Below are positions 40,741-54,127 of a DNA stretch of 64,000 nt, piece after piece. Location: positions 248,001 through 312,000 of the forward strand of contig JAFDXK010000005.1 in assembly GCA_018267965.1 (NCBI GenBank). Direction: 5' to 3'. The notes below the pieces were generated by a model. That model saw nothing but the letters and a program-made list of their open reading frames with translations. It ran no database searches and had not been told where the DNA came from. The DNA is from Bacteroidota bacterium (lineage in GTDB: Bacteria > Bacteroidota > Bacteroidia > Chitinophagales > Chitinophagaceae). A program made the position numbers and the translations under genes. Numbering within the stretch: the first letter of the stretch is position 1; each line of letters begins with the position of its first letter.

Positions 40741-40837
40741 GTTTCAGAAAACCAGGTTCGAAACTCAGCCTTTTTTCAGATTTACTTCAACTGTTTATAC
40801 ATTATACTTACAACTGATTTTGTAACAAACATCAATT

Positions 40838-40855
40838 AAGGACATTTTTATCCTT
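40838..40855 (+). promoter_or_regulatory. NO-cluster palindrome, site 1 (norC)
   Basis: AAGGACATTTTTATCCTT is an imperfect palindrome 55 bp before norC. GTCATATTTT (40869-40878) starts 29 bp after its GGAC. The same pair with the same spacing occurs upstream of the fasciclin gene and of the nosZ-operon cytochrome. If TATTTT is the -10/-7 element, the palindrome centres near -40. Confidence 0.6.
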
Positions 40856-40863
40856 CATTATGA

Positions 40864-40889
40864 TTGTCGTCATATTTTGATTACGACAA
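40864..40889. promoter_or_regulatory. second inverted repeat at norC
   Basis: TTGTCGT and ACGACAA form a perfect 7-bp inverted repeat 12 bp apart, enclosing the putative -7 element. Half-sites resemble those reported for HcpR-type Crp/Fnr regulators, although the spacing is longer. It was seen only at norC. Confidence 0.4.
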
Positions 40890-40910
40890 CACAATTACCT
40901 TGCAGTCGTT

Positions 40911-41312
40911 ATGTTCCTAAGAATCTGGATACTGCTGTTTTTAGTATTTCTTAGCTATACTATTTACCTATATATAAATTGTGATACTGGCAGGCAAATA
41001 CCGGTTGAACGAGCTGTTGTTGCGGGCAGAGATTTATGGCAAAAAAAGAATTGTCAGGCATGCCACCAACTATATGGGCTCGGGGGGTATATGGGGCCCG
41101 ACCTAACAAATATCACCCGTACAAAAGGTGAAAATAGCACTGCAATATTTATAAAATACGGTACCGGTAAAATGCCGAACCTGCAACTATCTGATGCAGA
41201 GGTGCAAAATCTTGTAGCCTACCTGTCCTGGGTTGATAAAAGCGGCACTTCTAAAGTGCCTGAAAACAAAGTACACTGGTCGGGTACATATTTAATAGAC
41301 ACAAAACAATGA
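40911..41312 (+). CDS. norC: nitric oxide reductase cytochrome c subunit
   Basis: 133 aa. One N-terminal membrane anchor (WILLFLVFLSYTIYLYI) is followed by a single-heme cytochrome c domain with C48-Q-A-C51-H52 and the axial Met88 in GTGKMPNL. It passes electrons to NorB in the cNOR complex, which reduces 2 NO to N2O on the outer face of the inner membrane. The stop overlaps the norB start by 4 bp (ATGA). Upstream are two regulatory inverted repeats. Confidence 0.92.
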   Translation: MFLRIWILLFLVFLSYTIYLYINCDTGRQIPVERAVVAGRDLWQKKNCQACHQLYGLGGYMGPDLTNITRTKGENSTAIFIKYGTGKMPNLQLSDAEVQNLVAYLSWVDKSGTSKVPENKVHWSGTYLIDTKQ

Positions 41313-42643
41313 AAGGAATTTTCAAAGGGTATATTCTATTTGCACTCCTCATGCTGGCTGCAACTTTGTTATTCGGGTTGCTGGCATCATGGGTATTCCT
41401 CTATCCGCAATCGTTCAACAATTCATTCCCATTTCAGCAACTACGGCCAATGCATGTATCGGCAGCACTCTTTTGGATAATTTCCGGAGCTACATGTTGT
41501 ACTATTTTTTTTAGCAATGAAGCATTTAGTGTATACAACAAAAGCAAAAAGGGTATTCACGCCTTCATTGGACTATGGATTGTTACAATCATAACTGTAT
41601 TCATTTATTATTTCAGGAAAGAATATGGTGGCAGGGAGTATTGGGAGTTCCCATCGTGGCTAAGCATTCCTTTATTAGTAAGCTGGATACTATTTATGGT
41701 TTCCTACTACAAACCCTGGCTGGCTATTGCCAACAAGAAGCCCATGTACCTGATAATGTGGGCCACTGGTATACTGTTTTTCTTTCTCACATTCCTTGAG
41801 CAAAACCTGTGGCATATCGATTGGTTCCGTCAATCGTATCTCAGAGAACTGACTGTTCAATGGAAGGCAAATGGCTCTATGGTAGGCGCATGGAACCAGA
41901 TGATTTATGGTTCATCGTTATACCTGATGGTAAAAATAAGCGGAGATAAATCTATAGCTGAAACTAAACAGGTACAGTTTTTCTATTTTTTAAGTCTCAC
42001 CAACCTGATGTTCAACTGGGGGCATCATATTTACAATGTACCTACAGCTAACTGGGTACGCCATGTATCCTATTTCATTAGTATGACTGAATGGCTATTT
42101 TTCATCAGTATGATAAGGAGTTTCAGATCAAAACTGGATGAATACAAAATTCACAATCATCTTATACCTTATAAATTCCTTAGCATTTCAGAGCTATGGC
42201 TGTTTTTGAATTTAACACTGGCGCTGATGATGAGCATACCTGCTATTAACCGCTATACACATGGCACACATATTACTGTTGCACATGCTATGGGAACCAC
42301 TATAGGCATCAATTCAATGATATTACTTGGTGCAATAGGCTATATACTACGCATTGAAGAAATCAACAAGCGAGAAAAGAAGCTGATTCAGTATGCATTT
42401 ACTGTAACACAAATTTCATTCTTCATTTTTTGGATTTCGCTTATTGCTGCCGGGATACTAAAAGGATACAGAAGTGTAGAATTGAACATGAGCAATTTCC
42501 AGGAAATGATGTATCCTGTACTAAGGGTATTAACCGTATTTTCTATTGCAGGCATATTCGTTGTGTTGGGTTTGCTGCTTATTATCATCATTTATTTGAA
42601 ACGACTTTGGATGATAAGAACAGAGGCATTCGGCAGCAAATAA
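41309..42643 (+). CDS. norB: nitric oxide reductase catalytic subunit
   Basis: 444 aa, about 12 helices of the heme-copper oxidase fold. Candidate heme and iron ligands are the His in RPMHVSAALFW, the pair in NWGHHIYNVP, and THITVAHAMGTTIGIN. The length and lack of an N-terminal cytochrome or quinol domain fit the cNOR type, which needs NorC. It catalyses NO reduction to N2O. It is translationally coupled to norC. Confidence 0.92.
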   Translation: MKGIFKGYILFALLMLAATLLFGLLASWVFLYPQSFNNSFPFQQLRPMHVSAALFWIISGATCCTIFFSNEAFSVYNKSKKGIHAFIGLWIVTIITVFIYYFRKEYGGREYWEFPSWLSIPLLVSWILFMVSYYKPWLAIANKKPMYLIMWATGILFFFLTFLEQNLWHIDWFRQSYLRELTVQWKANGSMVGAWNQMIYGSSLYLMVKISGDKSIAETKQVQFFYFLSLTNLMFNWGHHIYNVPTANWVRHVSYFISMTEWLFFISMIRSFRSKLDEYKIHNHLIPYKFLSISELWLFLNLTLALMMSIPAINRYTHGTHITVAHAMGTTIGINSMILLGAIGYILRIEEINKREKKLIQYAFTVTQISFFIFWISLIAAGILKGYRSVELNMSNFQEMMYPVLRVLTVFSIAGIFVVLGLLLIIIIYLKRLWMIRTEAFGSK

Positions 42644-42662
42644 TATATATCATTATAAAAGC

Positions 42663-42676
42663 GGACATTTTTGTCT
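42663..42676 (+). promoter_or_regulatory. NO-cluster palindrome, site 2 (fasciclin gene)
   Basis: GGACATTTTTGTCT lies 89 bp before the fasciclin gene. GTCATATTTT (42691-42700) begins 28 bp after the first G. The same 14-mer occurs exactly, reversed, as the core of site 3. Confidence 0.6.
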
Positions 42677-42765
42677 GAAATATGACTTCAGTCATATTTT
42701 ACCAGTTAATACAGGTATAGTTTTACGTCATAATCATATTCCCCAATACACAAAAAACGTATGAT

Positions 42766-43320
42766 ATGAAAAAGAACTTTTGGCTAATGATAGTAACCGC
42801 AATATCATTAGCATCCTGCCAAAATGCAGAAAATCAGCAAGCGCCTGCCTCTTCCGGAGAGGTGTCTATGTCTACTGTCCCTGCAGCTGAGGACAATGTC
42901 TCTCAACAGGATGTAGTACAGGTTGCCATAGGCAGCAAAGATCATACTACACTTGTAGCTGCTGTAAAACAGGCAGAGCTAGTTGAAGTGCTCAAAAAAA
43001 CCGGTCCTTATACGGTATTTGCGCCCGTAAATACCGCATTTGATAAACTACCTGCAGGCACTGTAGACGGCCTGATGAAACCTGACAAAAAAAGTGCCTT
43101 ACAAGACATTCTCGAATATCATGTTTCAGTTGGCATTTATAAAGAAGATATGTTGCAAGACGGACAAGTGATAGGCCAAGTGAACTCACAGAACATTACT
43201 ATAAGCAAAAAAGATGGGAAGATTAAGGTAAATGGCACAGCTAATGTACTGGCTGCCATACCTGCATCCAATGGTTTGATATATGTTATAGATGAAGTAT
43301 TGCTACCTCCTAAGAAGTAG
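42766..43320 (+). CDS. fasciclin-domain lipoprotein
   Basis: 184 aa. A lipoprotein signal ends ISLASC (lipobox, Cys18), followed by a Gln/Ala/Ser-rich linker and one fasciclin (FAS1) domain, ~50-184: DHTTLVAAVKQAELVEVLKK, GPYTVFAPVNTAFDKLP, LEYHVSVGIY, NGLIYVIDEVLLPP. FAS1 lipoproteins are often found in Bacteroidota nitrogen-oxide loci but their role is not established. The promoter shares the norC-type palindrome, so it is likely co-regulated with NO reduction. Confidence 0.88.
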   Translation: MKKNFWLMIVTAISLASCQNAENQQAPASSGEVSMSTVPAAEDNVSQQDVVQVAIGSKDHTTLVAAVKQAELVEVLKKTGPYTVFAPVNTAFDKLPAGTVDGLMKPDKKSALQDILEYHVSVGIYKEDMLQDGQVIGQVNSQNITISKKDGKIKVNGTANVLAAIPASNGLIYVIDEVLLPPKK

Positions 43321-43380
43321 TTATATTCGTATGATTATTAGCGAGTTATCTAATAAATAAATTTAATAAAAAGGAGTAGA

Positions 43381-43821
43381 ATGTTTTCAAAATCTTGCGA
43401 ATACGGCATCAGGGCTATTATATATATTGCTTCTGAAAATGAAAAAGGTGAGAAAGTAGGTATTAGCGAAATATGTAAGAACATTGAGGCTCCGGAACAT
43501 TTTACTGCCAAAATATTACAGATACTAAGCCGCAATAAAATTGTAAGTTCACAGAAAGGCGTGCATGGCGGTTTTTACCTGGACGATTTTCAAAAAGACA
43601 TCCGTCTTATAGATGTTGTAACAGCAATAGATGGTAAAGCACTATTTACAGGGTGTGGGTTAGGACTCAAGCAATGCTCTGAGGCTAACCCATGCCCTTT
43701 GCATAATAAATTCAAGGCCATACGTAACGACATAAAACGAATGCTTGAAGATACCAGTATTGATGAGTTAGCCAGAAACCTGAAAAAAGGTAAATCAGTT
43801 TTGAAATCCATAAGGGTATAA
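43381..43821 (+). CDS. Rrf2-family regulator, NsrR-like, with three-cysteine cluster
   Basis: 146 aa. The N-terminal winged helix (SKSCEYGIRAIIYIA, ISEICKNIEAPEHFTAKILQ, QKGVHGGFYL) is typical of Rrf2 proteins. C92, C99 and C105 (C-X6-C-X5-C in GCGLGLKQCSEANPCPLH) match the pattern of iron-sulfur ligands in NsrR/IscR-type members, which sense NO or cluster status. AAAAAGGAG just before the ATG is an unusually good ribosome site. Its position among norCB, ric and nos genes makes it the leading candidate to bind the shared palindromes. That link is inferred. Confidence 0.85.
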   Translation: MFSKSCEYGIRAIIYIASENEKGEKVGISEICKNIEAPEHFTAKILQILSRNKIVSSQKGVHGGFYLDDFQKDIRLIDVVTAIDGKALFTGCGLGLKQCSEANPCPLHNKFKAIRNDIKRMLEDTSIDELARNLKKGKSVLKSIRV

Positions 43822-43837
43822 AAAATTTATCCAAATA

Positions 43838-43856
43838 AAAGACAAAAATGTCCTTT
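43838..43856 (+). promoter_or_regulatory. NO-cluster palindrome, site 3
   Basis: AAAGACAAAAATGTCCTTT lies between the Rrf2 gene and the next membrane-protein gene. Its core 43840-43853 is the exact reverse complement of site 2. An in-frame ATG (43848) lies inside the palindrome, which argues for the later ATG at 43872 as the true start. No GTCATATTTT partner was found here. Confidence 0.55.
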
Positions 43857-43871
43857 ATTAAACATCTAATA

Positions 43872-45155
43872 ATGAGTTTAGGCAATAAAAAGAAATGGCT
43901 TAAGGTAGCATTAATAAACCTTTGTATTGTTGCAATGTTAGGATTTGTGCTGAGAAGTAAAATAGTATTCTCTATACCCTTAATAGACTACAAAAACACA
44001 TTACATGCACATTCCCATTTTGCATTTGGTGGCTGGCTGACACTAGCCTTAAATACACTGCTTATCTACGAGCTACTTTCTAAAGAAAGTAAACAACGGA
44101 AAGTGTACCAATGGCTATTGGGAAGTTTCCTTTTCAATGCGATAGGAATGTTAATAAGCTTTCTCATTCAGGGTTATGCATTCTACTCTATACTCTTTTC
44201 AACACTGTTTGTGTTCACTTCATACGTCTTTGCAGTGATGTTTATCAGAGACATAAACAGAAGTATTTCAAGTAAAACTGTTAAGCTACTAGCAGTTTCT
44301 GCAGTTGTGTATTTCTGCCTGTCTTCTGCAGGCCCGTTTACTTTAGGCTATCTTATTGCTACAAAATCGCAAAACGTGATACTATACAAAAACGCTATTT
44401 ACACATACCTGCATCTGCAATACAATGGATATTTCACATTATCAGTATTCGCTCTCTTTCTTAATAGAATTGAAAATTACCTATCCGACATCGGCCGCAA
44501 AAACTTTCATCGCTTTGCCGTAATGCTCAATTTATCAGTAGTGCCATCATTGTTCCTCTGTTATTTATGGCATTATCCCTCAAATACATTTATCGCGATT
44601 GCAATAGCAGGTGCTTTGCTCATGTTAATCTCATTATACTATTTCACAAAAGGCATTTCAGAAATCCGCAAGAAGCTTTATGGACAACCCCCACTGACCA
44701 GATACCCTTTACTATTATCGTTTCTGGCATTCTCGTTAAAAATTGTATTGCAATCGCTGACAATAATAAAACCCATAGGTGATGCCGTGTTCAGTAACAG
44801 GCCTGTTGTTATTGGCTTTCTGCACCTTGTATTACTTGGATTCATATCGTTATACCTATTGGCACACTATACATTGGTAGGTATGCTTAAAAATGACAAA
44901 CGAACTATGCTTGCCATGTCGCTTTTTATGTTTGCCGTTATCATGAATGAAGTGACCCTTATGTCGCAAGGCTTAGGTATAATGCTGATGGAAAGCAGCA
45001 AATTGTTTCCATGGACATTATGGATAGTTGCTTTGGCATTACTTATCAGTAGTATGCTATTAGTATCATTCGCTCTAAAAAACAGAACTAAAGGGAACGA
45101 CACACCTGCCCCTCTATCATTAGAATTTAAAAAGCTATTTATACAACATAAATAA
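43872..45155 (+). CDS. 12-helix membrane protein, heme-copper-like, in NO cluster
   Basis: 427 aa from ATG 43872. About twelve membrane helices carry clustered histidines: NTLHAHSHFAFGGWLTLALN, YTYLHLQYNGYFTLS and GFLHLVLLGFISLYLLAHY. The layout recalls heme-copper oxidase or NnrS-like proteins, with His in helix II and late helices, but the full set of catalytic ligands was not confirmed. Many such proteins in Bacteroidota are left as uncharacterised. Its place between an Rrf2 regulator and ric suggests a role in NO tolerance. The longer start at 43848 would put the start codon inside a palindrome. Confidence 0.5.
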   Translation: MSLGNKKKWLKVALINLCIVAMLGFVLRSKIVFSIPLIDYKNTLHAHSHFAFGGWLTLALNTLLIYELLSKESKQRKVYQWLLGSFLFNAIGMLISFLIQGYAFYSILFSTLFVFTSYVFAVMFIRDINRSISSKTVKLLAVSAVVYFCLSSAGPFTLGYLIATKSQNVILYKNAIYTYLHLQYNGYFTLSVFALFLNRIENYLSDIGRKNFHRFAVMLNLSVVPSLFLCYLWHYPSNTFIAIAIAGALLMLISLYYFTKGISEIRKKLYGQPPLTRYPLLLSFLAFSLKIVLQSLTIIKPIGDAVFSNRPVVIGFLHLVLLGFISLYLLAHYTLVGMLKNDKRTMLAMSLFMFAVIMNEVTLMSQGLGIMLMESSKLFPWTLWIVALALLISSMLLVSFALKNRTKGNDTPAPLSLEFKKLFIQHK

Positions 45156-45164
45156 ATACAGAAA

Positions 45165-46088
45165 ATGAATATTAAAATTGATGTAACAAAAATAATGCCT
45201 CGCAGAAAGCACCCTGCTATATTCGAAGCATTCGATGCACTAAGTGCCGGAGACTCAGTTATTATCCATAACGACCACGACCCCAAGCCGGTATATTACC
45301 AGTTGATTGGCACAAGGGGGCATTGCTTTACTTGGTCTTACTTATCCAGTGGCCCCGAAGTTTGGGAGGTAGAAGTACGAAAAAATGAGTCAACCCACAA
45401 TGGCGCTACTATCGGGAGCATTGTAACCAAAGATATTCGCAAAGCAGAAGTATTTAAAAAGCTTGGTATCGACTTCTGCTGTGGTGGCAAAAAAACACTA
45501 GAGCAGGCATGCAAAGAAAAAGGACTCGAAGAATCTGATGTCTTGCTGGCTTTAGAGAATACAAATAACAATACCGGAAATACACACGATTTTGACAAAT
45601 GGAAAATATCATTCCTTGCAGATTATATCATAAACCAGCATCACACATATGTACGAGACAGCACCCCTCTGCTATCTGAGCTTTCAATGAAAGTATCAAG
45701 TATGCATGGCGATAAAAACCCTGAATTAATCAACATCAATGAGAAACTCGGTCTTCTTTTAAAGGAGCTTGCCACACATATGAAAAAAGAAGAAGCCATT
45801 CTGTTTCCATACATAAAGAAACTGGAAGATAATATATGTAATGAAGTGAAATTTAATAATATCCAGGAAGCGGTATGGGTAATGGAACGAGACCATGATG
45901 TTGCCGGCGATTTGATGAGAGAGATTCGTGAATTATCAAACAACTATACAACACCCGTCAATGCTTGCAATAGCTACAAACTTCTTTACTATAAGCTGGA
46001 AGAATTTGAAAACGACCTTCACAGGCATGTGCATCTCGAAAACAACATCCTATTTCCTAAATCAATAGAGATTGAAAATAATGCTTAG
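45165..46088 (+). CDS. ric: DUF2249-Ric (ScdA/YtfE) di-iron iron-sulfur cluster repair protein
   Basis: 307 aa fusing two modules. Residues ~8-75 are DUF2249 (HPAIFEAFDALSAGDSVII, HDPKPVYYQL). Residues ~84-140 are the ScdA N-terminal domain with F-C105-C106-G-G. The hemerythrin-like domain follows with di-iron candidates H159/160, H181, H205, E209, H244, H286-H290 and E292. Ric proteins repair iron-sulfur clusters damaged by NO or oxidants. The gene is 9 bp after the membrane-protein gene and ends at a terminator, closing the rightward NO-stress group. Confidence 0.9.
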   Translation: MNIKIDVTKIMPRRKHPAIFEAFDALSAGDSVIIHNDHDPKPVYYQLIGTRGHCFTWSYLSSGPEVWEVEVRKNESTHNGATIGSIVTKDIRKAEVFKKLGIDFCCGGKKTLEQACKEKGLEESDVLLALENTNNNTGNTHDFDKWKISFLADYIINQHHTYVRDSTPLLSELSMKVSSMHGDKNPELININEKLGLLLKELATHMKKEEAILFPYIKKLEDNICNEVKFNNIQEAVWVMERDHDVAGDLMREIRELSNNYTTPVNACNSYKLLYYKLEEFENDLHRHVHLENNILFPKSIEIENNA

Positions 46089-46112
46089 TATATTCATGAC
46101 CTAAGAAGATGG

Positions 46113-46130
46113 GGGGAGTATTTACTCCCC
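46113..46130. terminator. bidirectional terminator between ric and nosY
   Basis: GGGGAGTA and TACTCCCC form an 8-bp perfect GC-rich stem with a 2-base centre, between convergent genes. No long T-run follows. Confidence 0.6.
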
Positions 46131-46139
46131 TATTCTGTT

Positions 46140-46907
46140 TTACAGATCTTTCCTTTTAAACACTCTTCGTGATAACATCAGCGGAACGATAACCCAGAAT
46201 AACATACAGGTAACGGCATATATACTTCCCGTAGCTGAGCCGAGAAACTTTTTAAACAATGCCCCGGAGTAGCCCATCAATACTGCTACATCAAGTTGCA
46301 GCAACATGAGTATCCTTGCCAAATCAATAGGATTAAAAGCCACAATACCTAATATAGGCTTATCTATTGGGTAATCGCTGAACGAATAAATGAACATTAA
46401 CAATAACCCGTCAAACAGCAGGCTGAAAAATAATGCTATAATAATTGCAGCCCCAATGCCTTTTGTTTTGTCCTTGAACAGAACAAATATCAGGAGAGCC
46501 ATTGCTGTAAAGCACAATGTGAGCAATAAGCCGCTAACCAACAGTGTGATAGCAGCCATATTGGGCGACAAAAAAAGTACGGGAACTCCAATACCTAATG
46601 CATAAGCCAAACACAATGCTGATGCAAGACCTGTATATTCGGCCAGCAGCACGCGTGTACGTTTTACCGGTTGTGCCAACAAAAGCTCGATGAATTCAAT
46701 TGAGTTAAAAAAATAGATGGTAGCAAACAGTATACTAATGATAGGCACAAACAGTAACGTAATATTCAACAGGCTTAGCAGCCCTTTAGACGTGTTACTA
46801 TCAATGCTCAACACACTAAAAGATAATGTAGCCAATAATAACGTATAAACCAGTACAATTTTGTTACGTACCAGGTCAAGCGCAACATATTTTACAATAG
46901 TGTTCAT
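46140..46907 (-). CDS. nosY: NosY-type ABC permease
   Basis: 255 aa with six helices in the ABC-2 permease layout. It begins VKYVALDLVRNKIVLVYTLLLA and contains FFNSIEFIELLLAQPVKRTRVLLAEY, the motif typical of NosY. With NosF and NosD it forms the transporter that supports assembly of the copper-sulfide site of nitrous oxide reductase. Its ATG overlaps the nosF stop by 4 bp. It is the last gene of the leftward nos operon. Confidence 0.87.
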   Translation of the reverse strand: MNTIVKYVALDLVRNKIVLVYTLLLATLSFSVLSIDSNTSKGLLSLLNITLLFVPIISILFATIYFFNSIEFIELLLAQPVKRTRVLLAEYTGLASALCLAYALGIGVPVLFLSPNMAAITLLVSGLLLTLCFTAMALLIFVLFKDKTKGIGAAIIIALFFSLLFDGLLLMFIYSFSDYPIDKPILGIVAFNPIDLARILMLLQLDVAVLMGYSGALFKKFLGSATGSIYAVTCMLFWVIVPLMLSRRVFKRKDL

Positions 46908-47629
46908 ACAGACATCTTTTTAGGTTGGGTCTGCTGCATTAATGCTGCAACAACCCTGTTTAATTTCAATTCACCCGTAATATCCTGCAACTCTTCTACC
47001 GTTTTATAAAAAGCCAGTTTGCCTTCCTGCAGATATACTAAATGACTGGTAATACCTTCCAAATCGCTCAATACATGCGATGTAATGAGTATCAGTTTAC
47101 CTTTATTACGTTCGGCTGTAATTTTTTCTTTCAGTATCTCGCTTGATACAGGGTCCAGTCCTGCAGTAGGCTCATCCAGTATAAATATGTCGGGTGAGAA
47201 CAGGAAGGCTAAACATGCACTCACTTTTTGTCGGGTGCCGCCAGAAAGGCTCCTCATCGTCTTGTTCTCCAGTTTATCTATACCTAACCCTTTTATCAAA
47301 TCGTCATCATACTTCTTTTCCTCGCTTCGTATCTCTTTTATCATATTAATTACCTGGCCTATTGACATATTATCCGGGTATCTGCCTATCTGTGGCATAT
47401 AACCTATGTGCGAACGGTAGGCCCAGTTATTACTCACCTCTTTGCCATTAATTGTAATAATGCCTTTGTCTGGAATAACCAACCCCAATATAGACTTTAT
47501 AAGAGTGGTCTTACCGGAGCCATTAGGACCTAATAGCGATATCGCCTGCCCTTTCTCCAGTAGCAGGTTGATATTATCAAGCGCCCTGAACTTGCCAAAT
47601 GATTTCGTTAATTCAATTATGTTGATCAT
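46904..47629 (-). CDS. nosF: NosF-type ABC ATPase
   Basis: 241 aa. Walker A GPNGSGKTT (~35-43), signature LSGGTRQKV, Walker B IFILDEPTAGLDP and the switch His in ITSHVLSD are all intact. It energises NosY. It is translationally coupled on both sides (4-bp overlaps with nosD and nosY). Confidence 0.92.
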   Translation of the reverse strand: MINIIELTKSFGKFRALDNINLLLEKGQAISLLGPNGSGKTTLIKSILGLVIPDKGIITINGKEVSNNWAYRSHIGYMPQIGRYPDNMSIGQVINMIKEIRSEEKKYDDDLIKGLGIDKLENKTMRSLSGGTRQKVSACLAFLFSPDIFILDEPTAGLDPVSSEILKEKITAERNKGKLILITSHVLSDLEGITSHLVYLQEGKLAFYKTVEELQDITGELKLNRVVAALMQQTQPKKMSV

Positions 47630-48861
47630 TTTAGTTTCCAGCTTTTCATCATAGGAGAATCATCTTTCAATTGATCAGGCACTACACTCGGCATCACTTT
47701 CTCTACCTGGTTCATTACATCCGTAAGAAAACTCCGGTATAATATCATAGCTGTGGGTATTTTTTCTGTTACCACAGAATACATACTTACCGGGTAATAG
47801 GGCACATCGCCTATCTTGTTTTTGTCCAGGTCGTAGCCATCGTATTTATCCCAATAATTATTTTTAAAAACACTGAGCATCATAGTGCCGTTTGTTGCTA
47901 CATCAAATGAGTTCGACATAAAGTTATTCATCTCGAACGAATTGTTATCGCAACTTGCCTGCACGCGCATTGCCCAGCCGTTTTCTTTAAACTCATTATA
48001 CCTCACATCTATTCTGCTGGTGCCTTCCATGTATATGCCGACCGTGTTTTTTATAAAGAGGTTATGCATGATTTTACTGTCCGATATTTCTTTCAGTAGA
48101 ATTGCATAAGCAGCATCACCCCAGTTGTGCCTGAATGTATTGTTATGCATATCTACGTATTTAGAATACATAACGGCAACACCAGATCCGTTATCTACAA
48201 ACTGGTTATTGATATATGTATCACGGTGAGAAAACATAAAATGCAGTCCGTAACGTACATTTTTTGTCGAAACATTATTTTCTATCCTCGAATCCGTAAC
48301 AAATTCAAAGTAAATACCATCTCTATGACCTGTAATGGTGTTATTGCGTATCAGCAAATGGGTAGACTTCCATGCGTGTATGCCATTACCGCTATTCAAC
48401 TCATCTACGGAGTTGGCAGATACCATATTATCAATTATAGTACAGTAATGACTATTCTGCATATAGATGCCATACGTATTATAGTATAGCTTATTGTTCT
48501 GCACAATGGCATACTGCACATTTTGTAACCTGATGCCTGCCATATCTGTAAGGCTTGACCTGCCTGTTTTTTGAATCTGCAGCCCTGTAATAGTAACCGA
48601 ATCATGTGTTACAACAAATAGCTGGCCTTTACTGCCACCATCAACTATAGGGAACGAGATGCCGGTTATAGTCAGCTTCTTGTTGACGAGTATATCAATC
48701 TCGTTGTAGATGCCTTTTTGTATAAGAATAGTATCGCCGGGGTTTGACCTGTTAATGGCATTTTGGATTTGCCTGCCCTTACCGGGGTATACATGTATTA
48801 CTCCGGCATTGGCCTGCCGGCATACAAACAGTAAGATTAATAGTGCAATAGCTTTGGGCAT
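47626..48861 (-). CDS. nosD: NosD periplasmic copper-site maturation protein
   Basis: 411 aa. Signal peptide (AIALLILLFVCRQANA) then a right-handed beta-helix of CASH type (repeated N-N-x-I/L turns: IVQNNKLYYNTYGIYMQNS, IRNNTITGHRDGIYF, MHNNTFRHNWGDAAYAILLK). NosD works in the periplasm with NosFY to build the active site of NosZ. Order nosL-nosD-nosF-nosY is the usual clade II arrangement. Confidence 0.9.
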   Translation of the reverse strand: MPKAIALLILLFVCRQANAGVIHVYPGKGRQIQNAINRSNPGDTILIQKGIYNEIDILVNKKLTITGISFPIVDGGSKGQLFVVTHDSVTITGLQIQKTGRSSLTDMAGIRLQNVQYAIVQNNKLYYNTYGIYMQNSHYCTIIDNMVSANSVDELNSGNGIHAWKSTHLLIRNNTITGHRDGIYFEFVTDSRIENNVSTKNVRYGLHFMFSHRDTYINNQFVDNGSGVAVMYSKYVDMHNNTFRHNWGDAAYAILLKEISDSKIMHNLFIKNTVGIYMEGTSRIDVRYNEFKENGWAMRVQASCDNNSFEMNNFMSNSFDVATNGTMMLSVFKNNYWDKYDGYDLDKNKIGDVPYYPVSMYSVVTEKIPTAMILYRSFLTDVMNQVEKVMPSVVPDQLKDDSPMMKSWKLK

Positions 48862-48865
48862 GCTA

Positions 48866-49312
48866 TTATAAATTATTCCAGCTAATAGCCTGAATGCTCA
48901 AGCTATCCTGTAAGTGTTTTGCTTCCTGGTTATTAAGAAATGCAGCAGCATTTCCATTCATTGGGCTTGTAAAGAACTCATGTTTCAGGTATATGGCATT
49001 TGCGGCGTCAATCAGGGTACCTTTTTCAGAACCAAAATCACTCACATAATATTTGGCTTCTTTTGTCAAATTGGTATAATCACCTGCAAACTGCCTCATA
49101 CAGTTTACATCATCAAATTTATACACCTTTCCTTTAGATGTAATCATCTCAGCTGCAAAATGATAATCCACAATTGTCATCTTACAATGTGCACACGCTT
49201 CATTACCATAATCTATCGGCTCCACACCAGCTTTGCATGCACTGAATAATATTAATATCCCGTACGATAGGATATTGATGTAAGCCCTTAGGCTGTTTTC
49301 CCTTTTTTCCAT
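48866..49312 (-). CDS. nosL: NosL copper chaperone lipoprotein
   Basis: About 148 aa. A lipoprotein signal ends ILFSAC. The metal-binding core is EACAHCKMTIVDYHFAAEMIT (C-x-x-C-x-M), then KVYKFDDVNCMRQF, as in NosL, which delivers Cu+ to apo-NosZ at the outer membrane or periplasm. The frame extends to 49363, but ATG 49312 begins the signal. This start overlaps the end of the upstream gene by 25 bp. Confidence 0.88.
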   Translation of the reverse strand: MEKRENSLRAYINILSYGILILFSACKAGVEPIDYGNEACAHCKMTIVDYHFAAEMITSKGKVYKFDDVNCMRQFAGDYTNLTKEAKYYVSDFGSEKGTLIDAANAIYLKHEFFTSPMNGNAAAFLNNQEAKHLQDSLSIQAISWNNL

Positions 49313-49866
49313 TCGTAAAAAGTTATAATGACTAATAATGCACCCGCAGCTAGGTAAAACCAACCAGCTACATGCGGTTGTGATAACACCTCAAAATTCA
49401 GCATCTTTTTATATCCTATTAATGGTGGCTGGTAAGCCATCCCCGGCACTTTAATAGGCGCTTCGGGATTGAGGTTATGTCCGTAATCATATTCCCATTT
49501 ATAGAAGTCGTAAAAAGAAAACAACCCTACTACCGTAAATATGCCAGTCCATATATAATATCCTACTTTTCTATTCCACAGAAACACCAACACTCCCAGT
49601 CCCATGAATAGCATCATTGTAATGGGTAGATATACAAACTCTTTAAAATCTTCTTTGTGTATCGTTTTCATACCAATGTAGTGGTTCAATCCATTGATAA
49701 CATCTACATCATCTTTTACATCATTTATCCATATTGTCATTGTTAACCCGCCCGGATATTGTGGTGCTCGCAAATCAATTCTCCACATTGGGAAGAACCA
49801 TAATGTTACCAGAAAACCAATAACTATAAACGTACTAAACCTACCTAATGTTGTTAGCTTTTTCAT
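49288..49866 (-). CDS. nos-cluster membrane protein, unknown function
   Basis: 192 aa with four helices (FIVIGFLVTLWFFPMWRI at 14-31, MMLFMGLGVLVFLW ~84-97, GYYIWTGIFTVVGLFSFY ~102-119, and WFYLAAGALLVIITFYEW near the end). A periplasmic loop after helix 1 contains RAPQYPGGLTMTIW. I recall similar proteins between nosZ and nosL in Bacteroidota nos operons, but the function is not assigned. Cotranscription with nosZ is likely. Confidence 0.65.
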   Translation of the reverse strand: MKKLTTLGRFSTFIVIGFLVTLWFFPMWRIDLRAPQYPGGLTMTIWINDVKDDVDVINGLNHYIGMKTIHKEDFKEFVYLPITMMLFMGLGVLVFLWNRKVGYYIWTGIFTVVGLFSFYDFYKWEYDYGHNLNPEAPIKVPGMAYQPPLIGYKKMLNFEVLSQPHVAGWFYLAAGALLVIITFYEWKKGKTA

Positions 49867-49922
49867 GACTAAAAATAATAATGGCAGTACACTACTTAAA
49901 AAGCAGCGTACTGCCGAGTTAA

Positions 49923-51905
49923 TTATTTACTTGCAGTTGGCGCATCAGCTTTCGGAGCAGCATCACCAGTACCATAACGTAATGGTACGTTACTACCCTT
50001 AGCAGATACACGCAGGTAACCTTGCATTTCCTGGTGCAGTGCAGAACAGAAGTCTGTACAGTAGAATGGATAAATACCTGTCCTATCTGGTACAAACTTC
50101 AATGTTGAAGTTTCGCCCGGCATTATCAGCAATTCAGCGTTATTGCCATATTTCACGGCGAAACCATGAGGCACATCCCAGTCTTGTTCCAGATTTGTTA
50201 CGTGGAAATACACTTCATCGCCAACAAATACGCCTTCTATATTATCAGGGGTCAGGTGAGAACGGATTGCCGTCATGTAAACATCTACCCTGTTGCCATT
50301 GCGTACAACTTTGGTAGCTTTTTCACCCATCGACACATATTGATGGTGATTTTTGTTGATGTCATATATTTTCACACTCCTGTCTTTTATTACTTTAGCA
50401 TCTATTGCCTGAGCATAGTGCGGTTCACCAATAGTTGGGAAGTCCAGTATCAATTGCATTTTGTCGCCACTGATATCGTACAATTGTGCAGATTGTGCCA
50501 GTTCAGGACCCGTAGGTAAATAACGGTCTTTAGTGATTTTGTTATATGCTATCACATATTTGCCCCAAGGTTTTTTAGTATCGCCACCAGGCACACACAA
50601 GTGGCCAACTGAATAGAATGTAGGAACACGATCCAGTACTTTAAGGTCTTTAATATTCCACTTAACCACTTCTGAAGACAGGAAGAATGAAGTATACGCA
50701 TTGCCCTTGCCGTCAAATTCGGTGTGTAATGGGCCTAAGCCTGGTTTCTGAACTTCACCGTGCAATGCAGCTTCGTATTTAACAACAGGTATTCCATAGT
50801 AGTCGCCTTCGAATGTTTTATCGTTAATTGCTTTTTGCAATTTTTCGAAAGAGAATACAGGAATCAAAGCAGCGAGTTTACCACTACCAACAATATATTC
50901 GCCGGTAGGGTCTACATCACAACCGTGTGGAGATTTAGGACATGGTATCATGTATACCATATCTTTCAGCTCTGCAGGGTCTAACACCAACACTTCATTT
51001 TCTTCTTTAGACACCGCAGTTTGTGCATCATCATTCATTGTATTATGCATGTAACGAGCTTTCATTTTAGTGCCTTTACCAGCCTTTACATACTCTTCTG
51101 CTTTTTTCCAGTTTACAGCTACTATGAAGTCTTTATCTTTTTGAGATGCGTTTACTTCTAGTAAAGTATTAGCCTGTTCAGTGTTATAAGATGAGAAGAA
51201 GAACCAACCATGAGATGGCCCTTTACCGGCCCTAGACAGGTCGAGGCTCATACCCGGAAGCGCTATCTGAAAGGCAATATTCATATTGCCGCTGTTAGGG
51301 TCAACCTTAATGAACGAAGCAACACTTTTAAAGTTTTGTTTAAAACTGCTGATAGGTACATCGGCTTCTCCCAGCGGAACACTGAAACGCGTACCCGCTA
51401 CCACGTACTCTGTGTTTTCTGTAATAAACGGAGAAGAGTGGTTACCACCACTATTTGGTATTTCCAGAATTTCCTTTGTTGTAAACGTAGTTAGGTCAAT
51501 ACGAGCAACGCGCGGCGTGTTATTCGCATTTGCAAAAATCCATTTACCGTCTTGTTCACCGTTAGTTTGCGATAATGCAAGGTGATGCTCATCATCCCAC
51601 GGAATGAAACCCGCAGATGTATTAAGCATCGGTTTGGTTTCTTCATTAAATCCATAACCATTTTCAGGATTCACTGAGAATACCGGAATCACTTTAAGCA
51701 AACGTCCTGATGGCAAACCGTAAACAGAGACCTGTCCGTTAAACCCGCCTGATACAAAGTTGTAGAATTCATCGTACTTACCGGGAGCGACATAGGCTTT
51801 AGATGCGGCATCCCCCTGAACTACGGAGCTCGTATCTTTCATTTTACAACTCTGCACGCTAAGCAAGGCGCCTATTGAACAGGTTATTAAGAGCAGCTTT
51901 TTCAT
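49923..51905 (-). CDS. nosZ: nitrous oxide reductase, clade II, lipoprotein
   Basis: 660 aa. The signal is Sec-type with a lipobox (ALLSVQSC), not twin-arginine, which places it in clade II. Residues ~30-500 form the seven-bladed propeller with the CuZ-site histidines, including DDEHHLALSQTNGEQDG, SGGNHSSPF, SPHGCDVDPTGEYIV, GPLHTEFDGKG and GEPHYAQAI. The C-terminal cupredoxin carries the CuA motif FYCTDFCSALHQEMQGYL at ~610-625. It reduces N2O to N2 outside the inner membrane. The cytochrome c encoded just upstream is a likely electron donor. Confidence 0.95.
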   Translation of the reverse strand: MKKLLLITCSIGALLSVQSCKMKDTSSVVQGDAASKAYVAPGKYDEFYNFVSGGFNGQVSVYGLPSGRLLKVIPVFSVNPENGYGFNEETKPMLNTSAGFIPWDDEHHLALSQTNGEQDGKWIFANANNTPRVARIDLTTFTTKEILEIPNSGGNHSSPFITENTEYVVAGTRFSVPLGEADVPISSFKQNFKSVASFIKVDPNSGNMNIAFQIALPGMSLDLSRAGKGPSHGWFFFSSYNTEQANTLLEVNASQKDKDFIVAVNWKKAEEYVKAGKGTKMKARYMHNTMNDDAQTAVSKEENEVLVLDPAELKDMVYMIPCPKSPHGCDVDPTGEYIVGSGKLAALIPVFSFEKLQKAINDKTFEGDYYGIPVVKYEAALHGEVQKPGLGPLHTEFDGKGNAYTSFFLSSEVVKWNIKDLKVLDRVPTFYSVGHLCVPGGDTKKPWGKYVIAYNKITKDRYLPTGPELAQSAQLYDISGDKMQLILDFPTIGEPHYAQAIDAKVIKDRSVKIYDINKNHHQYVSMGEKATKVVRNGNRVDVYMTAIRSHLTPDNIEGVFVGDEVYFHVTNLEQDWDVPHGFAVKYGNNAELLIMPGETSTLKFVPDRTGIYPFYCTDFCSALHQEMQGYLRVSAKGSNVPLRYGTGDAAPKADAPTASK

Positions 51906-51931
51906 ATTATTGTTCTTTTATGTTGAGTTGA

Positions 51932-52423
51932 TTAGTTTTTACCATCATTTTTCCTCATGAACTCTACTATATGCCTTGCTTCATCATCTTTCAGATTTTG
52001 ATTCGGCATACGCACCATACATACCTCCATCATAGCTTTTGCTTCAGCATCTTTATCCAGCATCTCGTCTGTATTGGTTGCAAAATTCATGATCCACTCC
52101 GGTGTACGTCTGTCTGTTACACCTTTCCAGCCAGGACCTACCAATTTTTCATCGGTAAGCTTGTGGCATGAAGAGCATTTAACATCATAAATAGATTTAC
52201 CGGCAGCCACCATTTTTTCATCCAGCGGATGTGTCAATTCTACGTTCGTAAATTTCCCAATGCCTCTTGCTTCTTTCGCATCAGTAGCCGGTGCTTGTGT
52301 TGCAGAAGGCGCTTGTTGACCTGGTGTTTCCTCGGTAACAGTCTTTTCTTGTCCACCGCCGCCACAGCTGTAAACAAAAATGCTGGTAGCCATTACAATC
52401 AGAATTATGCTTTTCTTTTTCAT
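51932..52423 (-). CDS. cytochrome c lipoprotein of the nos operon
   Basis: 163 aa. Lipoprotein signal IFVYSC at Cys20, a Glu/Pro/Ala linker, then one heme c domain with CSSCHK (~83-88) and a Met ligand in VRMPNQNLKDDEA. It is the first gene before nosZ (26-bp gap), so it probably donates electrons to NosZ. Its promoter region carries palindrome site 4. Confidence 0.88.
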   Translation of the reverse strand: MKKKSIILIVMATSIFVYSCGGGGQEKTVTEETPGQQAPSATQAPATDAKEARGIGKFTNVELTHPLDEKMVAAGKSIYDVKCSSCHKLTDEKLVGPGWKGVTDRRTPEWIMNFATNTDEMLDKDAEAKAMMEVCMVRMPNQNLKDDEARHIVEFMRKNDGKN

Positions 52424-52516
52424 TGGTATTATTTTTTTGCAGTTAAGAATGAGTGCTATTAGACAACAAAAATCTCATCGAATGATTAAAAAAAATATGA
52501 CTAAAATCACTAAAAA

Positions 52517-52530
52517 GGACTTTTTTGTCC
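52517..52530 (-). promoter_or_regulatory. NO-cluster palindrome, site 4 (cytochrome c-nosZ operon)
   Basis: GGACTTTTTTGTCC (+ strand) is a perfect GGAC/GTCC palindrome about 94 bp before the cytochrome gene. On the minus strand, GTCATATTTT (52492-52501) begins 29 bp from the palindrome's first G, the same offset as at norC. Confidence 0.6.
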
Positions 52531-52578
52531 TGTTTTAAATCATCATTATATTTTGTTGCCTTGTAGCGCATGATTATT

Positions 52579-52974
52579 TTATAAAGAAATTTTAAAAGTG
52601 CGGGATTGGGTAAGCGTATTGCCATCGTGATCTAATGTTGCAACAATAATGAGTTGTGCATCAGAAATAGCATCAGTTGTGTTTACCCAGGATTTGTTTA
52701 CAACAATATTATCGCCGTGTGTGTGTTCGTCCAAAACCAGCAAAGTATCATTATTAGAACTAACAATAAATAAATCATACCCATGCATTGCAGCCGGAGC
52801 TTTAATAGATGCAGTTATATTTAAGGTATCTCCTTTATTCACTACCTGATTTTCATAAGGAGAGTTTATTGTGATGCTTGTTAATGTAGCCATATTGTTA
52901 TGCTCATCTTTTTTGCAAGCTGAGATTGCCAACATGATAAACATCACGAATTGTATTTTGTATTTGAGTTTCAT
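52579..52974 (-). CDS. small lipoprotein with Ig-like fold
   Basis: 131 aa. Lipoprotein signal (FIMLAISAC, Cys20), then a single beta-rich domain: ITINSPYENQVVNKGDTLNITASIKAP, typical of a bacterial Ig-like module, with H64 and EHTHGD as possible metal-binding residues. It lies 10 bp after the outer-membrane gene and before the cytochrome. Role unknown; EHTHGD might bind copper, an inference. Confidence 0.65.
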   Translation of the reverse strand: MKLKYKIQFVMFIMLAISACKKDEHNNMATLTSITINSPYENQVVNKGDTLNITASIKAPAAMHGYDLFIVSSNNDTLLVLDEHTHGDNIVVNKSWVNTTDAISDAQLIIVATLDHDGNTLTQSRTFKISL

Positions 52975-52984
52975 GTGCTAATAT

Positions 52985-53905
52985 TTAGAATAGCCAATAA
53001 ATACCTGTTTCAATTTTTAGCTTATTATTCACCATACCATTAGCATAATTCTGAACTATAGGCTTGTGAAACGCCACCTGTATACCTATATGGTCATAAA
53101 ACGCCTGGATGCCCGCAGAGCCCGATAACCTACCACCACCGCTCATATCATTTTTGATTCCATAAAAATAATTTTCGTAATCGCGGTACGTATATTCATA
53201 ACGACCACCTATCTGTGGTATTAGTCGTAGTTTTTTAATACCCATGCTATAAAAAATAAGCATACCACCTTGAAAACGGTTACCAAACCTGTATTTATCC
53301 GGATTTGAAGTGGTATAGATATATGACACATCTGTATTAATGCCAGTATGTGTATGCTGAAATGTGTAATTAATATTAGTGATGAAATCTAGTGAAGCGG
53401 TGCCGGGTTGCATATTGGGTAAAGCATCGCTATATTTTATAGCCATTCTGTCGTATTTGCCCGCTGGCAACTTTATTCCGGCACCTGCCTGTAACACATG
53501 CTGCCACTCTTTTCCACTACATACAGCACCAAGAATTTTGTAGTTGGCAAGTATGCTTATATCACCGATACCATTATAGATGGTTTTAGCATTAGTCTCC
53601 TGATGAACATTTGATACATACGGAACAAATGCAAATACCTGTACCCTATTCGATATTTTATAACGCCCCCAAACCTGAGCCATATGGTAATACTCCTTAG
53701 ATATTTCTCCGTTTAACTCTCCGGCTTCAGGCATATGTGTATTGAAAAAAGAACGATATTGATATTGAACACCTATAAAATTGCTCTTTGACTGTGGAAG
53801 TATTCCCAGATACTGATTACTAGCTGAGCATCCGCAAATGTTGCAGGCTTTAACATAATCTATGCTCCCCAACATGACAAATAGGATAAATATCAGCTTC
53901 TTCAT
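52985..53905 (-). CDS. outer-membrane beta-barrel with CNICGC N-terminus
   Basis: 306 aa. After the signal peptide the mature start reads KACNICGCSASNQYLGILPQ, a cysteine cluster that could bind copper. The rest is alternating beta strands with aromatic ends (NFIGVQYQYRSFF, IPQIGGRYEYTYRDY, KLKIETGIYWLF) ending in Phe, as in transporter-like barrels. It starts the leftward nos region and is preceded by palindrome site 5 and a TAnnTTTG element, so a role in copper or N-oxide metabolism is plausible. Confidence 0.7.
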   Translation of the reverse strand: MKKLIFILFVMLGSIDYVKACNICGCSASNQYLGILPQSKSNFIGVQYQYRSFFNTHMPEAGELNGEISKEYYHMAQVWGRYKISNRVQVFAFVPYVSNVHQETNAKTIYNGIGDISILANYKILGAVCSGKEWQHVLQAGAGIKLPAGKYDRMAIKYSDALPNMQPGTASLDFITNINYTFQHTHTGINTDVSYIYTTSNPDKYRFGNRFQGGMLIFYSMGIKKLRLIPQIGGRYEYTYRDYENYFYGIKNDMSGGGRLSGSAGIQAFYDHIGIQVAFHKPIVQNYANGMVNNKLKIETGIYWLF

Positions 53906-53909
53906 AAAA

Positions 53910-53945
53910 CAAAGCTAATACCATGAATAAAAGACAAAGATGTCT
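53910..53945 (-). promoter_or_regulatory. NO-cluster palindrome, site 5, with TAnnTTTG promoter element
   Basis: AGACAAAGATGTCT (53932-53945, + strand) is a palindrome 27 bp before the outer-membrane gene. On the minus strand TAGCTTTG (53917 to 53910), a perfect Bacteroidota -7 element, follows it and lies 4 bp before the ATG, which implies a very short or absent leader. Confidence 0.55.
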
Positions 53946-54127
53946 TTTGTTAGTTAATTAGATGATATTAGTCATGGAAATTGTCATCAGCTGCTTTTAA
54001 CCTGTAAATTCTGCATTAATCGACGCGAAGCCTATATATATCAAAAGCAGCATTTACATATACTATTGTAAATAAGCACCACGTAAGATAATCTATATAA
54101 AGCCTAAGCTTGTTGTATATTTAAGTA

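Follow-up and report, generated by a model that had tools for sequence, protein, structure and literature searches.

The locus considered here raises the question of which regulators control a cluster of denitrification genes in a Bacteroidota bacterium, and through which DNA sites they would do so. The cluster lies in a stretch of 64,000 nucleotides (assembly GCA_018267965.1, contig JAFDXK010000005.1, positions 248,001 to 312,000), which we refer to as “the window”; it is part of contig C9 of a 3.74-Mb genome. Between 40.9 and 53.9 kb, the window carries norC, norB, a fasciclin-domain gene, rrf2, a membrane-protein gene and a RIC/YtfE-like gene, as well as a cytochrome c gene and a gene for a protein of 306 amino acids (aa); the nos genes, within the same interval, lie on the strand opposite to the norC–rrf2–RIC block. 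Bacteroidota carry many of the clade II nosZ genes, which consume the greenhouse gas nitrous oxide (N2O). Two different palindromes, “site I” and “site II”, recur at the promoters of this cluster, and on sequence comparison we consider it likely that they are two operators for two regulators: the local Rrf2 protein would repress through site I, a Crp/Fnr protein would activate through site II, and nitric oxide (NO) would release Rrf2. The pair of boxes is defined well enough for its regulators and inputs to be directly testable, and for regulons to be read from genomes.

Site I and its association with rrf2

The original prediction had proposed that five copies of the palindrome RGAC-N6-GTCY mark a NO regulon. 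The five palindromes are real, but only four are exact (at 42663, 43840, 52517 and 53932, the four exact copies in 64 kb), while the copy before norC, at 40840 (GGACATTTTTATCC), has one mismatch. Shuffled windows contain 0.94 exact copies on average, and none of 100 reaches four; across the genome the short consensus is not special, being found exactly at 33 places, four of them in the window. The full element, which we call site I, is palindromic over 26 bp; 38 sites outside the window give the consensus AATAAARGAYA-N4-TRTCYTTTATT. A 26-bp weight matrix has been built from 12 sites of other genomes, located at rrf2 loci of up to 3.4 kb; the twelve were found via the short consensus of the window, and are independent of it in sequence, not in the choice of motif. 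The five best matches of this matrix in the window are the five sites (34.2, 28.2, 27.5, 18.5 and 16.4), followed by a sixth match at 10.8; of 40 Markov surrogates generated from the window, four contain a single match of at least 16, the highest reaching 22.9. The sites, as palindromes given no strand, are the following:

40834..40859: site I before norC, AATTAAGGACATTTTTATCCTTCATT, likely Rrf2 operator (matrix match)
42657..42682: site I before fasciclin-rrf2 (exact palindrome and matrix)
43834..43859: site I between rrf2 and the membrane-protein gene (exact palindrome and matrix)
52511..52536: site I before the cytochrome gene of the nosZ operon (exact palindrome and matrix)
53926..53951: site I before the 306-aa gene, gene-proximal (exact palindrome and matrix)

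Two further patterns place these sites within the genome. RGACAWWWWTGTCY, with at most one mismatch, occurs at 28 places, five of them within these 13 kb; its reversed sequence, uninformative as a control, occurs at 118, so that the pattern by itself shows no over-representation, and among the other 23 places the highest matrix score seen is 15.6, below the weakest site of the window. AAARGAYAWWWWTRTCYTTT, with at most one mismatch, occurs at three places; as it fits, by eye, only two of the window's five sites, at least one further candidate exists outside these five.

The comparison of rrf2 loci has been conducted with a matrix derived from the five window sites only, a score of at least 14 being required in the 200 bp preceding or the 150 bp following rrf2. 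Site I flanks rrf2 in 23 of the 30 closest loci of the family, the window included (21 of 6000 shuffled flanks), and in 11 of the next 20 (12 of 4000), i.e. beside the orthologous rrf2 in 34 of 50 loci in total; beside distant Rrf2 paralogues (28-35% identity) it occurs in 0 of 20 (shuffled flanks, 8 of 4000). In a second set, the best 80 of at least 567 candidates from a public scan, site I is found beside rrf2 in 52 loci (shuffles, 21 of 4000); this set covers, among others, Flavobacterium, Pedobacter, Mucilaginibacter, Chryseobacterium and Chitinophagaceae records, and shares some genomes with the first. The neighbouring genes vary (RIC, globin, cupredoxin, a large COX1-family protein, norCB, nosZ), while rrf2 and site I are constant: the two occur together where nor genes like those of the window were not found nearby, with RIC in L158-L160, with globin in L161, and with cupredoxin and the large COX1-family protein in L162. 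Near norCB, site I (score of at least 16) is present in 10 of the 21 loci that have an Rrf2 relative (at least 99 bits), vs 0 of the 6 that do not. This tally of 27 loci omits L117 and L118 (weak norB matches), and L104, the 28th locus given, is uncounted: norC was not found there, and an Rrf2 relative and a strong site I are present.

The Rrf2 protein itself belongs to the Rrf2 superfamily by its helix-turn-helix domain (Pfam, 95 bits; cut-off, 30), and a profile search matches it to solved Rrf2, IscR, NsrR and CymR chains. It possesses the three conserved cysteines expected of an iron-sulphur (Fe-S) regulator, with spacing X6-X5: the arrangement C92-X6-C99-X5-C105-X2-H108, as well as E7, is invariant in 25 aligned sequences. 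The spacing in NsrR is X5-X5, and the ligands of IscR resemble C-X6-C-X5-C-X2-H. The NCBIfam models of NsrR (43.4 bits; cut-off, 182) and IscR (55.7 bits; cut-off, 207.55), and the RirA equivalog, are all matched below their cut-offs, and the consensus of the 38 sites does not conform to the NsrR operator gATGyAT-N5-ATrCATc; for these reasons, the protein is not filed as NsrR.

NsrR is described as a NO-sensing repressor of the Rrf2 family in Proteobacteria and Firmicutes, with the above operator (PMC1274295). The present system resembles its regulon in combining a three-cysteine Rrf2 regulator, NO-detoxifying targets such as dnrN/ytfE and a palindromic operator (PMC1274295), and differs from it in the operator consensus, in the cysteine spacing and in a score far below the NsrR cut-off; by analogy, the local Rrf2 probably works like NsrR. 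Genome comparison, i.e. the rrf2-flank counts set against paralogues and shuffles, makes this protein, named as the second candidate binder in the original prediction, the likely one, and supports as probable the idea of a NO regulon marked by the palindrome. The first candidate, a Crp/Fnr-like protein at position -40, is not supported; the probable Crp/Fnr-type site is the second palindrome, ATGAY-N4-RTCAT, and site I is best read as the predicted operator of the local Fe-S-type Rrf2.

Two observations concern the distribution and the variants of site I. Locus L279, on a contig labelled Azovibrio restrictus, carries a Bacteroidota-type rrf2 and site I, and is probably a mis-binned metagenome contig. 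A recurrent, lopsided site resembling AATAAARGATAAAAAGGTATTAATAT is located just after rrf2 in L046, L047, L050, L056 and others; it consists of one arm of site I and a differing second arm, and may serve the following gene as a variant operator.

Site II and its spacing from site I

The box GTCATATTTT, three exact copies of which occur in the window, starts at a distance of 28-29 bp, counted from the first base of site I's 14-bp core, at norC, fasciclin and the nosZ cytochrome, just as had been claimed. Its interpretation as a -7 element has been rejected: the string is one arm of the palindrome ATGAY-N4-RTCAT, i.e. site II, both arms of which are kept in relatives. Site II is present at four of the five site I promoters, once with a mismatch, and has the register of FNR, DNR and HcpR sites; no accompanying site II was found for the site I at 43834..43859, in the gap between rrf2 and the membrane-protein gene. 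The four copies, again given no strand, are the following:

40860..40873: site II before norC, ATGATTGTCGTCAT (exact; centre 20 bp from site I)
42682..42695: site II before fasciclin, ATGACTTCAGTCAT (exact; centre 19 bp from site I)
52497..52510: site II at the nosZ cytochrome, ATGACTAAAATCAC (one mismatch; centre 20 bp from site I)
53962..53975: site II at the 306-aa gene, ATGATATTAGTCAT (exact, gene-distal; centre 30 bp from site I)

Exact copies of site II are just three in 64 kb (40860, 42682 and 53962), while ten Markov surrogates contain 0.6 on average and two at most. When one mismatch is allowed, copies become common (the window has 20 vs a surrogate mean of 15.3), so the nosZ copy at 52497 is recognised by its place. 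There are 40 exact copies in the genome, three of them in the window, and 32 of the reversed control; 16 of the 29 other copies that were read lie inside open reading frames (ORFs), so single copies mean little, and further copies adjoin genes for tryptophanase, mutL, aspS and catalase-peroxidase, with no clear link. Before norC, site II occurs in 8 of 27 loci (shuffles, 27 of 13500), independently of an Rrf2 relative (6 of 21 loci with, 2 of 6 without). Compared with TTGAY-N4-RTCAA, the core TGA-N6-TCA and the register fit, and the outer base is A, not T. The sites of DNR- and HcpR-type Crp/Fnr proteins, TTGATnnnnATCAA and TTGACnnnnGTCAA (PMC1274295), likewise share with site II the register and the half-site core TGAY-N4-RTCA, site II being distinguished by its outer base A (ATGAY). 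A Crp/Fnr activator is probably involved, acting at the very box that had been taken for the promoter and not at the palindrome first described.

At norC, fasciclin and the nosZ cytochrome, sites I and II abut or overlap by one base, and in near relatives the pair is again spaced by 19 bp before norC (L233 and L234) and before fasciclin (L233). Our census of spacing is based on 178 distinct copies of site I (score of at least 15) from all fetched loci: of the 23 exact site II copies found nearby, 15 are centred at 19 or 20 bp, two at 30, two at 27, three at 59 and one at 50, copies that are not independent, many being related, L247 and L249 being near duplicates, and two of the 15 being those of the window. 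The spacing of the 13 one-mismatch copies is spread, and the distance of 30 bp at the head of the 306-aa (barrel) gene is found both in the window and in L312.

A stronger test than this census is a scan of 395 genomes of the phylum for the I–II pattern, blind to genes, which has returned 26 matches from 22 genomes, compared with 5 for the reversed control. Among the 24 matches outside the window, 13 lie beside nirK (7), cytochrome–fasciclin–nosZ (5) or norC/RIC (1), and three of the five cytochrome–fasciclin–nosZ loci have a divergent rrf2; of the other 11, ten have site I scores below 9, and the eleventh, L339, has a good score and none of the probe genes was found there. When the spacing is shifted by five bases, seven matches are obtained (reversed control, 2), none of them beside any of the 25 probe genes. 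The gene-proximal box is site I at 7 of 7 nirK genes and at the one norC, and site II at 5 of 5 cytochrome–nosZ heads. Within the window, norC, fasciclin and the nosZ cytochrome are arranged I–II–gene, and the 306-aa gene II–I–gene; the nosZ head agrees with those of the scan, while norC has the opposite order to the norC of the scan. NirK exceeds the cut-off of its family model in L288 and L301 (Flavobacterium), and is recognised by similarity in L304 and L309.

In these four loci, the Flavobacterium-type nirK encodes about 480 aa and is preceded by the I–II pair, spaced at 20 bp; the C-terminal part of NirK weakly matches cytochrome c models in L288 and L301. Elsewhere in the genome under study (C6:843132-850600, locus L181), site II precedes ccoN, and also a 139-aa ORF that is followed by a heavy-metal P-type ATPase; these copies adjoin a gene for a receiver–Crp fusion, in what is likely an oxygen-limitation cluster.

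Proposed mechanism and its alternatives

What has been observed directly is the two motifs, how they are spaced and conserved, and which genes they accompany; from this we infer the identity of the binders, repression, the NO signal and competition; repression, NO release and the identity of the activator are modelled on the known biology of NsrR and FNR (PMC1274295, PMC10187123). In the mechanism that we propose, a cluster-loaded Rrf2 dimer would bind site I in the manner of NsrR and repress norCB, fasciclin-rrf2 (including its own gene), membrane protein–RIC, cytochrome–nosZ and the barrel gene, until damage of the Fe-S cluster by NO freed it from the DNA. Site II would be occupied by an activator of the Crp/Fnr family that serves oxygen-limited respiration, and Rrf2 on site I would block this activator, or the core promoter where site I is nearer to the gene, so that transcription would require the activator and NO together. 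Since the sites abut or overlap by one base (19-20 bp, about two helical turns), such blocking is probable; adjoining boxes at this distance, whichever comes first, are compatible with a repressor that either keeps an activator off the DNA or masks the core promoter.

Several observations weigh against this mechanism. There are 28 of the 80 named rrf2 loci without a flanking site I (12 carry one elsewhere, with a score of at least 18, and 16 none), and close relatives of Rrf2 in G132 (70% identity) and G005 (59%) are without a strong site I. Directly before norC, site I (score of at least 14) occurs in only 4 of 27 loci, the window included, and one of these four copies (15.0) is located in a genome without an Rrf2 relative. 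The order of the sites relative to the gene differs among genes, and L293 has the pair and no nirK in its locus. Five Crp/Fnr genes exceed the cut-off in the genome, none of them in the window, leaving several candidate activators; in three relatives (L145, L143 and L154), Crp/Fnr genes are found within about 1.5 kb of norC, their products having at most 34% identity to the Crp/Fnr proteins of this genome. Lastly, a search for -7 elements found none at norC and, at fasciclin and nosZ, weak candidates with one mismatch (background, 0.9%), so the positions of the activator relative to the transcription start are guesses.

Among the alternatives, we regard as unlikely that Rrf2 and Crp/Fnr bind their abutting, phased sites jointly as co-activators, Rrf2 being no repressor there. 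The preferred 19-20 bp, together with the 30 bp at the barrel heads, suggests that the two proteins lie on the same face of the DNA, and at three promoters of the window (norC, fasciclin, nosZ) site I is upstream of site II; against this, at the barrel gene and at every nirK of the pair scan it is site I that separates site II from the gene, the arrangement expected of a repressor, and a 26-bp site I would overlap, at a distance of 20 bp, with the footprint of Crp, which is about 22 bp. It is rather improbable that Rrf2 senses Fe-S or iron status as IscR and RirA do, the NO genes responding indirectly: the cysteine-histidine pattern recalls the ligands of IscR, and IscR and RirA are among the sub-threshold NCBIfam matches, yet wherever a neighbour or a target of site I could be named, it serves NO detoxification or denitrification, isc and suf genes not having been searched for.

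The primary idea of the original prediction, in which a Crp/Fnr protein would occupy site I around -40 and GTCATATTTT would serve as the -7 element, is very doubtful: three promoters do show the spacing of 28-29 bp and the genome does have Crp/Fnr genes, but site I tracks rrf2 even where no window-like nor genes were found near, its GA..TC spacing is off the FNR/DNR/HcpR consensus by one base per half-site (PMC1274295), and the supposed -7 box is half of a conserved palindrome. That the palindromes are chance or terminator-like repeats is hardly credible: the short consensus does recur across the genome, but the matrix, paralogue, shuffle and gene-blind scans and the conservation contradict it. 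Site I as a Crp/Fnr site, GTCATATTTT as a -7 box and chance repeats have been rejected.

Returning to repression by Rrf2 and activation by Crp/Fnr, the control of one promoter by FNR and NsrR is already known, from E. coli hcp and Neisseria aniA (PMC1274295, PMC10187123), where likewise an FNR-type activator site and an Rrf2-type repressor site share the promoter of a nitrogen-oxide gene; the present case varies that logic, in that the two sites form a recurrent composite, with a preferred spacing of 19-20 bp, that precedes nirK, norC, the fasciclin gene and nosZ of Bacteroidota. Metagenome scaffolds have been described in which rrf2 is located beside clade II nosZ, one of them, assigned to the CFB group, carrying an nnrR-like (Crp/Fnr) gene (PMC6264515); neither an operator nor an activator site is mentioned in the part of that account consulted. 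HcpR of Porphyromonas is treated in PMC12750200. In the literature covered, chiefly top-ranked items with few from subscription journals, we have found no operator for Bacteroidota denitrification genes, nor the I–II pair. Tentatively, and with somewhat less than even confidence, we suggest that the pair may be a composite element of Bacteroidota for a NO-sensing Rrf2 and a Crp/Fnr protein, acting as an AND gate for low oxygen and NO: it would have a preferred helical phasing (19-20 bp, or a further turn) and an order that depends on the gene (site I being the closer box at nirK, site II at nosZ), would have been distributed as one unit to positions before nirK, norCB and nosZ of separate lineages, and its two proteins, when bound to DNA, would be in contact or mutually exclusive.

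Genes of the locus and their relatives

The genes to which the sites belong are the following:

40911..41312, plus strand: norC-like cytochrome c (cytochrome c family matches)
41309..42643, plus strand: norB-like (COX1 family, PF00115)
42766..43320, plus strand: fasciclin-domain protein (PF02469)
43381..43821, plus strand: rrf2 (the sole Rrf2 gene of the genome above the cut-off)
43872..45155, plus strand: membrane protein, conserved in NO clusters (ORF from 43848; start 43872 set by relatives)
45165..46088, plus strand: DUF2249-RIC/YtfE-like Fe-S cluster repair di-iron protein (TIGR03652, over cut-off)
49923..51905, minus strand: nosZ, Sec-type (TIGR04246, over cut-off)
51932..52423, minus strand: cytochrome c heading the nos cluster (family match)
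52985..53905, minus strand: 306-aa protein, the outer-membrane barrel of the original prediction (without family match)

The 306-aa protein has no match in Pfam or NCBIfam. In relatives, a protein of 602-610 aa is encoded near norC; its copies are 60-66% identical to each other, and show no Pfam match (L144 and L145 copies scanned) and no NCBIfam match (L145 copy). Site II copies precede those of L144 and L145. Genes of an MbnH-like protein (below the cut-off) and of the MbnP family are located near the barrel-gene region of relatives, and also beside one site II of the genome under study. The copies and loci are:

L144:5721-7553, 602-610-aa protein
L145:14551-16368, 602-610-aa protein
L149:13041-14870, 602-610-aa protein
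L147:11477-13285, 602-610-aa protein
L312:1486-2532, MbnH-like/MbnP-family locus
L144:1032-1766, MbnH-like/MbnP-family locus
L169:734-1456, MbnH-like/MbnP-family locus

For the membrane protein, no convincing family has been found in Pfam, a relaxed threshold included, or in NCBIfam. Its start at 43872 is backed by an alignment of seven sequences, and its six relatives, with 45-50% identity, are likewise located in NO clusters and share invariant histidines, e.g. in the stretch HAHSHFAF.

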